Of a DNA stretch of 64,000 nt, positions 15,598-24,065 are shown in pieces (position 1 is the first letter of the stretch; each line of letters opens with the position of its first letter). Position numbers and translations under genes: made by a program. Source of the DNA: Gemmatimonadota bacterium (lineage in GTDB: Bacteria; Gemmatimonadota; Gemmatimonadetes; Gemmatimonadales; Gemmatimonadaceae); contig JAQBPX010000038.1 in the NCBI GenBank assembly GCA_028287305.1, positions 124,001 through 188,000 on the forward strand, read 5' to 3'. Under the pieces are notes generated by a model, which ran no database searches, was not told the origin of the DNA, and was given only the letters and a program-made list of their open reading frames with translations.

Positions 15598-16578
15598 TTA
15601 CCCGTGCCACCGACTCCGCTTCCCGCGCGCATCGATGTGCACGTAGGGGGTCTTGTACCGGCGGCTGGTGTAGAGGCCCATACCGCCCGCCAGCTCCGGG
15701 TGGACGTCCTCGACGTCTTCCACGGCCCGGGCGACGATGATCTCGTCGGTGAGGTCGATGCGGCCATCGCCATTGGCGTCCATGGCGACGTCGGCGGCGT
15801 CACCGTACTGGTGGCGGCTGTCGCGCGCGGCGCGGGGCGTCAGGCGGTTGTGGCTGGGCGTCCGGAATCCGGAGTGGACGCCCACGGCCACGTGCTCCGA
15901 GTCGCCGCGCTGGCGGGACACTTCAGCCACCACCAGCTCCAGCTTGTCGAGCAGGCGCGGGTTGAGCGCCACGTACTTGGGCCAGACGTCTGCCTGGTCG
16001 TCGTGCGTCACGAACTCGCCGAGCTTGAAGTGCTCGCTCACGGCGAGCCCGACGTCCTGCGGGTACACCTCGAGGAAGCCCTCGGGCGTGGACCCGCCAT
16101 GACCAAAGCGCTCCGCGACGTACGTGCCGATCTGGTAGCCATTCAGGAAGCCGCCGAACTTGCGCGCGAAGGGCACCTGCACGGCGATCACGGGCTCGCG
16201 AAGGATCTGGCGGGTGCCTCCGCTGCGGAGCGCCAGGCGATAGAAGCCGGGGGCGTCGGGAGCCTGCACGCGTGAGCCGACCAGCGGCTGCGCGGAATCG
16301 CCCACGATGGCGCCGGCAGGACTCACCCAGTCGTAGCTGAGCGTCGCGGGGTCGCCCGCGAACTGGAGGGGATAGTCCACCGAATCGCCGGGCAGGGCGA
16401 AACGCAGCTTCACGGCGCCGCTACGGCCGAAGGCATCCGCCGAGGGTCCGCTCGCGAGGCCGCCGAACCGCGAGAATGGCGCGGTGACCACGTGGGTGGG
16501 CGACGCGACCTGAAGGGAGGCGAGAACGGCGATGACGAGCACGCCGGTGGATGCAAACGACAGCTTGCGACGCTTCAA
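15598..16578 (-). CDS. Secreted M15-type (YcbK-like) peptidoglycan peptidase with an EF-hand loop
   Basis: A 326-residue protein. The TTG at 16578 is preferred because AGGGAG lies six bases upstream and a clean signal peptide (MKRRKLSFASTGVLVIAVLA) follows; a GTG at 16614 is the alternative. Residues about 190-320 form an M15A/DUF882 zinc peptidase domain, with HSGFRTPSHN, then RHQYGDAADVAMD (zinc His and Asp) and YVHIDARG (second His). Immediately after the first zinc motif is DANGDGRIDLTDE, a canonical calcium-binding EF-hand/dockerin loop. The N-terminal half is beta-rich and unassigned. The likely role is trimming cell-wall peptides outside the cell membrane. Confidence 0.78.
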   Translation of the reverse strand: MKRRKLSFASTGVLVIAVLASLQVASPTHVVTAPFSRFGGLASGPSADAFGRSGAVKLRFALPGDSVDYPLQFAGDPATLSYDWVSPAGAIVGDSAQPLVGSRVQAPDAPGFYRLALRSGGTRQILREPVIAVQVPFARKFGGFLNGYQIGTYVAERFGHGGSTPEGFLEVYPQDVGLAVSEHFKLGEFVTHDDQADVWPKYVALNPRLLDKLELVVAEVSRQRGDSEHVAVGVHSGFRTPSHNRLTPRAARDSRHQYGDAADVAMDANGDGRIDLTDEIIVARAVEDVEDVHPELAGGMGLYTSRRYKTPYVHIDARGKRSRWHG

Positions 16579-16697
16579 GTGACTCCCTCGCTGGACGACG
16601 ACCCGGCATTCCACCGGCTGAACACGAAAGATAGTGTCGGCCGCCGTCGCCCGAACCTGAGCAAAGGTATGGATTTACGTAAATACTGTCCGAACGG

Positions 16698-17561
16698 TCA
16701 GTAAATGAAGACCGGGGTGCCTACCGCCACCATCTCGTAAAGCTTGTCTATGTCGGCATTTCGAAGGCGGACACATCCGTGGCTGACCGAATGGCCAATG
16801 CTCTCTGGATGATCCGTACCGTGGAGCGCGTAGCCGTCCCCGATGTTCAGTCGGTGGGTCCCCAGCACCCCCATGTACTTGCGGGCGTTGGTCCCGTAGG
16901 GGGGCACCACGATGTTGCCGTTCACCACCAGCTCGTGCCCTTCCTTGGCCTCGAGCGCCGTTACCTGCCCGTTGGGGGCGCGGCGCACCAGGTCGTTGCC
17001 CTGGACCGAGATCACCGAGCCATCGGACGCGGTCACCTGGTCCCCACGGTTCATCTTCACCACGCCTAGCCCCTTCTTCTGGGCCATCTCCACAAAGTGC
17101 CAGTCGGGGGGAATCCAGGCGGGCGCCGAGTCCTTGGACTGGACCACCAGCCGCCCGCGAGGCGTCTCGAACTTCCACTGCCCTGCCGCTCCGCCGCCCC
17201 CCTCGAGCACCTTGCCACTCCCCGTGGCCACCTGCGTGGTGAACAGGACCGAGTCGCCCTGCTTGTACCAGAGGCGATGGTCCTCGATGCTCACCACGAT
17301 GTATGGCTTGTCCTTCGACGGCAGCTCCGCGCTGGAACCCAGCACCTGCCGGAGGCTGTCCGACTCGGCGCCGACCTGGTGCCGGACCTCCTCGAGCAGC
17401 CCGAGGTTGTCGTTGAACACCATGCGGCTCACGTCGCGCTCGTAGCGCGCATCCACCGTATGGCCGAAGACCACGGTGCTGCCGAAGGCCACGAGCACGA
17501 ACGCGCCGATCAGCCCCCAGGCGAGCAGGCCACCGTGCCGGAAGAATCGAATCATTCCCAT
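16698..17561 (-). CDS. L,D-transpeptidase (YkuD family)
   Basis: A 287-residue protein with one N-terminal membrane anchor (about residues 9-33) and a helical linker. A C-terminal YkuD domain follows, beginning near PYIVVSIEDHRLW (residue 82). The active site is complete: ALHGTDHPESIG near 248 and SHGCVRLRNADI near 262, with the catalytic cysteine. Such enzymes form 3-3 cross-links in peptidoglycan or attach proteins to it. It begins one base after the stop of a homologous upstream gene that lacks the catalytic residues. Two in-frame ATGs (17561 and 17555) are possible starts. Confidence 0.87.
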   Translation of the reverse strand: MGMIRFFRHGGLLAWGLIGAFVLVAFGSTVVFGHTVDARYERDVSRMVFNDNLGLLEEVRHQVGAESDSLRQVLGSSAELPSKDKPYIVVSIEDHRLWYKQGDSVLFTTQVATGSGKVLEGGGGAAGQWKFETPRGRLVVQSKDSAPAWIPPDWHFVEMAQKKGLGVVKMNRGDQVTASDGSVISVQGNDLVRRAPNGQVTALEAKEGHELVVNGNIVVPPYGTNARKYMGVLGTHRLNIGDGYALHGTDHPESIGHSVSHGCVRLRNADIDKLYEMVAVGTPVFIY

Positions 17562-17562
17562 G

Positions 17563-18318
17563 TCAGTAGAAGTACACCGTGGTGCCGCTCTTGATCGCGG
17601 CGCGCACGGCACGGATGTCCTCGGATCGCGCCCGGATGCTGCCCGGGAGCACGTAGCTGCTGTCGTTGAGCGGCCCCACCGAGGGCATCGAGTAGATCAC
17701 GGTGCCTCCCGCCAGGACGATGGCATCGGGGCCCAGCGCGCCCTTGAGCGCGCGCTCCGCTGGCACGGGCAGCCCGCGATCCTGGTAGACCCATACGGGC
17801 ACCTCCCACGCGTCGTCGGCACCCATCAGCCGCTCCACGGTGCGGGCACCGCGCGGCGAGGCAAGGTGCACCGTGTCCGCACCAGCGCCCACGCGCTTCT
17901 CCGCCCCCACCTGCAGCGGCATGGCGCGGAGGATGGCGCCCTCCTGCTCCAGGTACATGATCGTGCTGTCCACCGCGACGCTGAGGTGCAGCGCCTGCGC
18001 CACGTGCGCCTGGCGGCGCATGAGCTCCACGGTGACCTTGAGCCGGTCCTCGTCATTGGCCATCGCCGCGTCGGCGCGCTCGCGCTCCACCTTGGTCATG
18101 CCGTCGCGAAGCCGGGCGACCTCCGACGCGTAGCGCTGTCGCTGATAAAGCAGGTAACCGTCGGTGGCAAGCAGCGCGGCAATGGCGATGGCGAAGGTCA
18201 CGATCACGCCCGGGTAGGCGTGCCGGAACTCGCTCCAGCTGTCGCGTCGTCGATCGTTGGCGTCCGGGCTGCGCTTGTCGGCGCCGCCGGGAATCGCGGT
18301 GAGCTTTCTGCGGGTCAT
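17563..18318 (-). CDS. Degenerate L,D-transpeptidase paralog without catalytic residues
   Basis: A 251-residue protein with an N-terminal membrane helix (about residues 35-55) and a coiled-coil-like linker. Its C-terminal domain aligns with the YkuD domain of the next gene: ILRAMPLQVGAEKRV against the equivalent VLFTTQVATGSGKVL, a shared SPRG/TPRG turn, and the same C-terminal ending (TTVYFY against TPVFIY). Where the active enzyme has SHGCVRLRNADI, this one has LPGSIRARSEDI, so both the histidine and the catalytic cysteine are gone. The first histidine motif is also replaced (VIYSM). A start at 18348 would add ten residues. It may be a regulatory or structural partner of the active enzyme. 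Confidence 0.68.
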   Translation of the reverse strand: MTRRKLTAIPGGADKRSPDANDRRRDSWSEFRHAYPGVIVTFAIAIAALLATDGYLLYQRQRYASEVARLRDGMTKVERERADAAMANDEDRLKVTVELMRRQAHVAQALHLSVAVDSTIMYLEQEGAILRAMPLQVGAEKRVGAGADTVHLASPRGARTVERLMGADDAWEVPVWVYQDRGLPVPAERALKGALGPDAIVLAGGTVIYSMPSVGPLNDSSYVLPGSIRARSEDIRAVRAAIKSGTTVYFY

Positions 18319-22532: not shown

Positions 22533-24065
22533 ATGCGCGCACGAGCGACGCTGTCAGCCCTCACGCTCGCGATGGCCTGCGCGCGAGGTGCGATCGCGCC
22601 CAGCCCGGCGCCCATGCCGGCGCCCACGCCGGCGCCCAGCGTGGTGCCACCGCGCGTCCCGGTCGCGCAGGAACGCGCCGCGCTCACGCAGTCGCTCGAC
22701 TCGCTCGTGGGGGGCGCAGAGTTTCGCAACGCGTTCTGGGGAATCCTGGTGGTGGATCCGGTGCGCGGCGACACGCTCTACGCACGAAACCAGGCGAAGC
22801 TCTTCACGCCCGCGTCCAACCAGAAGCTGCTCACGAGCGCCATCGCGCTCACCCAGCTCGGCGCTGACTTCACCTGGCAGACGCGCCTCCATGCGAGCGG
22901 CACGGTACGCGACTCGGTGCTCGACGGGAACCTGATGGTCGAGGGACGCGGCGACCCGGGCGTGAGTGACCACGCGCTGGGCGATGCGATGATCCCGCTG
23001 CACGCGCTCGCCGATTCGCTGCGCGCGCGGGGCATCCGCCGCATCACGGGCAGCGTGCTCTCGTACGGCGACGCATTTCCCGGCTCCACCGCTGGCGATG
23101 GCTGGGAGATCGATGACCTCGACTATTCCTACGGCGCCCCCACCGACGAGCTGCTGCTGAACGAGGGGTTCACCTCGGTGATCCTCACCGCCGGCGCGCG
23201 CACCGGCGACCCGGTGGGCATCCGGCTGTCGCCTCCAGTGCCCGAGGCGATTCGCGCGATCGACAACCGGCTGCGGACTCGCACGCGCGCCGACTCGCTC
23301 TCCACCTTCCAGCGCATCTCCTCGGTCGTCGATACGCTGAGCAACAGCGTCGTGCTCACCGGCGAGCTTGTCGCGGGCGCCACCGACACCATCGAGGTGG
23401 TGCATCGCACGCCGAATGGCGCGTACCTCGCCGCGCTCCGCCGCGCGCTCGCGGACCGGGGCATCACGGTGGTCGGCGGCGGTCACGCGAACGGCTCGGC
23501 CGCCGAGAACGTGCTGGTGACGCAACACTCCCTCGCGCTGCGCGAGGTGCTGCCGCTCTTCCTCAAGCCCTCGCAGAACCAGCTCGGCGAGCTGCTCTTC
23601 CACACGCTCGCGCTCGAGAAGACCGGTGTCGGCAGCGCCGACAGCGCGCGCGCCGTGTACGAGCGCCAGCTCAGGGCGTGGGGCGCGAGCGACGACGGGC
23701 GCATGGTGCGCGACGGCAGCGGCCTTTCCCGGCGCGACAAGGTCTCCCCCGAGACGATCATCCGCGTGCTCGACGCGATGCGCCGCAGCCCGGACTTTCC
23801 GCTCTACTACGCGTCGCTCCCGATCGCCGGAGTGGACGGCACCATCCGGCGCCGCATGCGCGGCACCAGCGCCGCGGGCAACGTGCACGCCAAGACCGGC
23901 ACGCTCACGGGGGCGCGCTCACTCTCCGGGTACGTCACGACCGCCGACGGCCAGCTGCTCCTCTTCAGCACGCTCTGCAACAACTACACGGTCTCCACCG
24001 CCATCGTGGACCGGCTGTCGGACGCGCTGGCGATTCGCCTCGCATCCATGCGCCTCGCGCCCTGA
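22533..24065 (+). CDS. dacB: D-alanyl-D-alanine carboxypeptidase/endopeptidase, PBP4 (S13) family
   Basis: A 510-residue secreted serine enzyme that trims or opens peptidoglycan cross-links. After an N-terminal export signal and a proline/alanine-rich linker, the active-site tetrad SNQK is at about residue 92 (TPASNQKLLTSA). The SQN motif is near 347 (KPSQNQLGELLF) and the KTG box near 452 (HAKTGTLTGARS). The long insertion between the first and second motifs is typical of PBP4. A possible lipoprotein cysteine is at residue 17. It starts immediately after the mobA stop and eight bases before moeA, an unusual place for a cell-wall gene. Confidence 0.9.
   Translation: MRARATLSALTLAMACARGAIAPSPAPMPAPTPAPSVVPPRVPVAQERAALTQSLDSLVGGAEFRNAFWGILVVDPVRGDTLYARNQAKLFTPASNQKLLTSAIALTQLGADFTWQTRLHASGTVRDSVLDGNLMVEGRGDPGVSDHALGDAMIPLHALADSLRARGIRRITGSVLSYGDAFPGSTAGDGWEIDDLDYSYGAPTDELLLNEGFTSVILTAGARTGDPVGIRLSPPVPEAIRAIDNRLRTRTRADSLSTFQRISSVVDTLSNSVVLTGELVAGATDTIEVVHRTPNGAYLAALRRALADRGITVVGGGHANGSAAENVLVTQHSLALREVLPLFLKPSQNQLGELLFHTLALEKTGVGSADSARAVYERQLRAWGASDDGRMVRDGSGLSRRDKVSPETIIRVLDAMRRSPDFPLYYASLPIAGVDGTIRRRMRGTSAAGNVHAKTGTLTGARSLSGYVTTADGQLLLFSTLCNNYTVSTAIVDRLSDALAIRLASMRLAP

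Follow-up and report, generated by a model that had tools for sequence, protein, structure and literature searches.

Two adjacent genes on the minus strand were investigated in the window, i.e. the whole analysed stretch of 64,000 nucleotides from a Gemmatimonadota bacterium. The upstream gene A (17563..18318) starts with ATG, ends with the stop codon TGA at 17565-17563 and encodes a putative membrane-anchored pseudo-L,D-transpeptidase of 251 amino acids, which contains neither the catalytic Cys nor the catalytic His residues. Gene B (16698..17561, ATG at 17561-17559) encodes a membrane-anchored L,D-transpeptidase (LDT) of 287 amino acids with a complete YkuD catalytic centre. An earlier reading of the DNA letters alone (the sequence-only reading) had placed stop and start one base apart, and base 17562 is indeed the sole spacer between them on this strand.

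B passes the Pfam YkuD profile PF03734 (E 9.5e-25, 88.3 bits, cut-off 23.4) and carries an insert of about 50 residues. Its sequence, ...DGYALHGTDHPESIGHSVSHGCVRLRNADI...GTPVFIY, holds the full LDT centre, consisting of H247 (codon 16821..16823, minus strand) and S260-H-G-C263 (codons of H261-G262-C263 at 16773..16781, minus strand). Judged by the YkuD domain and the H/SHGC motif, B is an active-type LDT. The sequence of A, ...AGGTVIYSMPSVGPLNDSSYVLPGSIRARSEDI...GTTVYFY, has Y209 (17692..17694, minus strand) at the position equivalent to H247 and L-P-G-S opposite the SHGC of B, with P225-G226-S227 (17638..17646, minus strand) in place of HGC. The loss of the catalytic Cys in the upstream copy was thus read correctly before. 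Lacking Cys and His, A is by its sequence unable to use the known LDT mechanism.

Fold of A

Profiles of the two families were built from 19 A and 19 B sequences, one per genus (19 genera). Their profile-profile comparison with hhalign, a check proposed by the sequence-only reading, linked A to the LDT family (E 6.8e-8, probability 94.6) over 203 columns, among them those of the membrane helix and neck. The homology extends from the membrane helix and neck through the final residue, in agreement with the common layout described earlier for both proteins. Live LDTs of other Gemmatimonadota lineages were retrieved with the A profile at about 1e-11 to 1e-16, and with a wider A profile, scores of up to 102 bits were obtained for live LDTs from Acidobacteriota. 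The A protein of the window, queried alone against Pfam, gave no match; 4 of 12 members of its family matched Pfam YkuD directly, the best with 7.1e-6.

The AlphaFold2 model of A, predicted with 26 relatives, has a mean pLDDT of 82.5, with most of the C-terminal domain above 90. It consists of a helix covering the membrane segment (residues 36-72), a neck helix (76-105) and a YkuD fold (107-251). Residues 107-251 of the model matched YkuD structures in Foldseek with E-values down to 1.7e-7 (to 4lpq), and superposition on Bacillus subtilis YkuD (4a1i) with VIA-align gave Z 13.4 and rmsd 2.1 over 106 residues. On these profile comparisons and the predicted structure, A is a member of the YkuD/L,D-transpeptidase fold family. 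A different fold of A had been named as an outcome that would speak against a YkuD pair; structure prediction gave YkuD. A chance likeness of motifs between A and B is ruled out by the profile and fold comparisons. A also has sequence matches to entries for beta-lactamase and YicC in NCBIfam and PDB; these cover the membrane helix and neck only, lie far below the cut-off and were taken as chance.

Loss of the catalytic centre in relatives

The relatives of A comprise 60 distinct proteins from Gemmatimonadaceae, from a second family of the class and from two MAGs labelled Acidobacteriota. None of the 60 has a Cys within the last 150 residues; relatives with the catalytic Cys, which would have pointed to a single decaying copy, were therefore not found among them. 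The nucleophile position is occupied by Ser (29), Ala (20), Asn (3), Thr (3) or other residues, the position of the second His by Pro in 51 proteins, so that most A proteins read PGS or PGA where HGC is expected. In all 66 distinct B proteins both His and SHGC are present, and H247, H261, G262, C263 and R265 are invariant. The claim that the first histidine motif is lost as well holds for the window and for nearly all Gemmatimonadota (Tyr in 51 of the 60), but not for the members from Acidobacteriota and a small number of others: these retain the first His, and their HGC shows the same kind of replacement, in most cases by PGS. The Arg following the lost Cys is retained in 48 of 60 A proteins, among them those of most Gemmatimonadaceae, and is absent from the A proteins of the second family and of Acidobacteriota.

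A has several invariant or near-invariant polar residues (H111, D117, S118, R131, D148, R159, D219 and D234), as would be expected if A were an enzyme whose YkuD fold houses another catalytic centre. This explanation is nevertheless very improbable, given the variable nucleophile position and the lack of Cys described above. Many of these polar residues belong to the first hairpin or to positions that B keeps too, and the groove wall is missing in short variants of A (see below).

Phylogenetic analysis of 69 YkuD domains placed all 24 dead ones on one side of a single branch with support 100/99, and a smaller tree gave the same result; the larger tree is unrooted and contains long branches. 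Since every dead A lies on one side of this branch, a single ancient loss of the catalytic centre is favoured as the simplest reading of the sequences. A and B as sister groups were weakly rejected (p-AU 0.033). The term paralog, used for A in the sequence-only reading, is thus appropriate for an old relationship, and a recent tandem duplication of B is unsupported.

Selection and conservation of the pair

Within genera, dN/dS ranged from 0.05 to 0.58 for A and from 0.04 to 0.61 for B, with most values below 0.3. A is under purifying selection similar to that of B. Decay of A, an outcome that the earlier reading had itself considered, is ruled out by these values together with the uniform absence of the catalytic residues in all relatives. 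One A-like frame is split by an in-frame stop (genome G258, locus L085, 1548-2168, minus strand), owing either to decay in this lineage or to faulty assembly. This frame and the one-base gap between the genes would suit the view that A is a decaying pseudogene or a mere translational leader for B. Against the B-like dN/dS, the conserved predicted fold and the persistence of A without catalytic residues in two phyla, such a view is hardly tenable.

A and B are found together in about 90 genomes of the Gemmatimonadaceae. In the phylum sample, a B ortholog was found in 86 of the 87 Gemmatimonadaceae genomes with a strong A match, the exception having a partial A match only. Eight Gemmatimonadaceae genomes contain B and no strong A; in five of them a dead A of reduced length and diverged sequence lies immediately upstream, another carries the split frame, and in two the contig ends there. 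Both genes are missing from several near-complete Gemmatimonadaceae genomes. Adjacent A and B also occur in the second family of the class and in a few Acidobacteriota. The survey of related genomes suggested beforehand thus gave very strong conservation, and the statement that a pseudoenzyme is kept beside its active sibling extends, in adjacency and co-occurrence, to two phyla.

In some MAGs labelled Acidobacteriota or Vicinamibacteria (L108 and L110/L124) the A-B pairs closely resemble those found in Gemmatimonadaceae. L124, labelled Vicinamibacteria and identical in locus with L110, falls among the Gemmatimonadaceae in the tree, which suggests a transfer or a mis-binned contig for these pairs. 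A second B-like LDT is encoded in the source genome (G000:C37:105377-106021, L003), and no dead partner of it was matched by the A search. B-type LDTs thus exist without A, and A is not a general requirement of this catalytic type.

Among the pairs tried, the pairwise distances of A and B showed the highest correlation (rho 0.69, a weak value from 15 loci), and the partial correlation of A with gpmI was almost as high. This is a weak hint of coupling, too slight to carry a conclusion.

Conserved and variable parts of A

Several A lineages have deleted about 35-45 residues beside the old groove (the WxxPxWVY/lid stretch), and the gene stays beside B; the model of one A shortened in this way shows the YkuD fold on the same membrane helix and neck. 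In one genus A is shorter still, yet it is also found beside B. In alignments of differing species sets, the similarity of the neck between relatives was 0.48 for A and 0.38 for B; the catalytic halves were more alike between relatives in B than in A, again with differing species sets. As the short variants drop residues beside the groove and keep fold and helices, sequences and models argue that the selected feature of A is a binding surface (hairpin, C-terminal part, neck or membrane helix) and not the groove.

Alternatively, A may bind peptidoglycan stems through a remodelled groove, serving as an anchor or sensor of its own at the sacculus or passing stems to B, and a contact with B would not be needed. 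The retained YkuD fold fits this explanation. The Arg kept in most Gemmatimonadaceae A may point to selection for ligand binding beyond scaffolding. In the L,D-carboxypeptidase Pgp2, a noncatalytic accessory domain binds peptidoglycan (PMC8038945). However, the groove-side residues are deleted in several lineages, A is shorter still in one genus, and neither the second family nor the Acidobacteriota have the Arg. We regard stem binding as the main role of A as rather unlikely. For the same reason, namely the loss of the stretch beside the old groove with the gene retained, substrate presentation is the least favoured of the three roles (regulation, scaffolding, substrate presentation) proposed in the sequence-only reading.

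Gene neighbourhood

A widely kept gene order is gpmI (divergent), A, B, an M15 peptidase, two small genes and IMPDH, commonly with a second M15-like gene. In the second family of the class, the gpmI/M15/IMPDH neighbourhood was not seen within a few kb of A-B. The gene following B in the window (15598..16614, minus strand) encodes a predicted M15-type peptidase (DUF882/MepK-like) with a His/Asp/His pattern. It scored 24.4 bits with PF08291 (cut-off 23.2), 18.7 with PF05951 (cut-off 27) and 15.2 with NF053624 (cut-off 185). The similarity to MepK is therefore weak, above the cut-off for PF08291 and far below that of NF053624. The position of this gene suggests that the peptidase may belong to the same functional unit as A and B.

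One M15 gene is found in the window, and many relatives have two M15/DUF882 genes in tandem after B (such genes lie, for example, at L088 7814-8797 and L106 5395-6432). In one genus (L080 2079-3533, minus strand; L081-L085) a protein with a bacterial SH3 domain is encoded between gpmI and the short A, giving the order SH3, dead LDT, live LDT. An S13-family D-Ala-D-Ala carboxypeptidase (22533-24065, PF02113, 312 bits) lies a few genes away in the window. D-Ala-D-Ala carboxypeptidases produce the tetrapeptide stems that are used by LDTs.

Discussion

A probably serves B as a non-catalytic partner subunit, the two being joined via membrane helix and neck; we hold this with some, but no great, confidence. 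A heteromer in which A steers B is the simplest account of the strict pairing, the same topology, the homologous helices and the dead centre. Each protein is predicted to have one N-terminal membrane helix, followed by a periplasmic helical neck and the YkuD domain. Encoded by adjacent genes, A and B would be produced together and could associate side by side. We infer a physical contact that most likely involves membrane helix and neck, perhaps also the conserved beta-hairpin in the YkuD domain of A. A would then position, stabilise or gate B, and the reaction of B, presumably 3-3 cross-linking or another LDT reaction, would be confined to the place and time permitted by A. The M15 (MepK-like) peptidases encoded after B may provide the opposing hydrolysis, so that 3-3 cross-links would be made and broken by one module. 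The L,D-endopeptidase MepK acts on L,D cross-links and is required when Escherichia coli LdtD makes them (PMC12729407).

Comparable pairs are known for other enzymes of the cell wall. In Helicobacter pylori, the live and the degenerate LytM (M23B) proteins Csd1 and Csd2 heterodimerise through helical domains (PMC5053510). Here, too, a live and a dead homolog share one fold of peptidoglycan enzymes, have a helical part each, and are encoded together and conserved as a pair. In contrast, Csd1/Csd2 have the metallo-endopeptidase LytM (M23) fold and cleave, whereas A and B have the YkuD fold, LDTs cross-link, and the A-B heterodimer is our proposal. By analogy, the A/B pair may work like Csd1/Csd2; as its domain fold is YkuD, it is no member of the LytM family.

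Alternatively, A could be a negative regulator, holding 3-3 cross-linking off until needed by formation of inactive heteromers or by plugging the active site of B. In a crystal, the C-terminal tail of the degenerate Csd2 occupies the groove of Csd1 (PMC5053510). The co-occurrence and selection data fit this equally well, but they do not tell an inhibitor from an activator. We consider inhibition improbable and favour activation or scaffolding by A as the role of the partner subunit.

Dead relatives that control wall enzymes are also found among the degenerate LytM regulators DipM, EnvC and NlpD (PMC10336132, PMC10268282); the dead LytM domain of DipM stimulates wall enzymes (PMC10336132). Their targets are hydrolases of other folds, whereas A and B have one fold and genes side by side. 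Among YkuD-type LDTs (PF03734; B. subtilis YkuD, Mycobacterium tuberculosis LdtMt1/2, E. coli LdtD), the fold is common to A and B and the whole catalytic motif is found in B only. A further divergent YkuD protein with an altered active site, E. coli DpaA/LdtF, is an active amidase (PMC12729407, PMC8263019); in contrast to DpaA, A has no nucleophile.

A word search of an LDT review gave no dead LDT partner (PMC12729407). Neither a dead LDT nor an LDT pseudoenzyme partner was found in the literature searched, which leaves most subscription journals outside its coverage. Dead partners are already known for wall hydrolases, and a dead LDT partner appears to be new within this literature.

For the Gemmatimonadota and some Acidobacteriota, we give an even chance to a two-subunit LDT with live and dead YkuD domains on neighbouring anchors, the dead subunit having been fixed before the split of the lineages or spread between them. 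If true, it would be the first pseudoenzyme-controlled LDT. The activation and placement of LDTs are poorly understood, whereas among wall hydrolases a role of dead relatives (EnvC, NlpD, DipM, Csd2) as controllers or partners is established. A conserved pair of a live and a dead LDT would extend this kind of control from hydrolases to cross-linking enzymes. A is a concrete candidate for the control of 3-3 cross-links, and this would give a role to a family whose member in the window is missed by Pfam.
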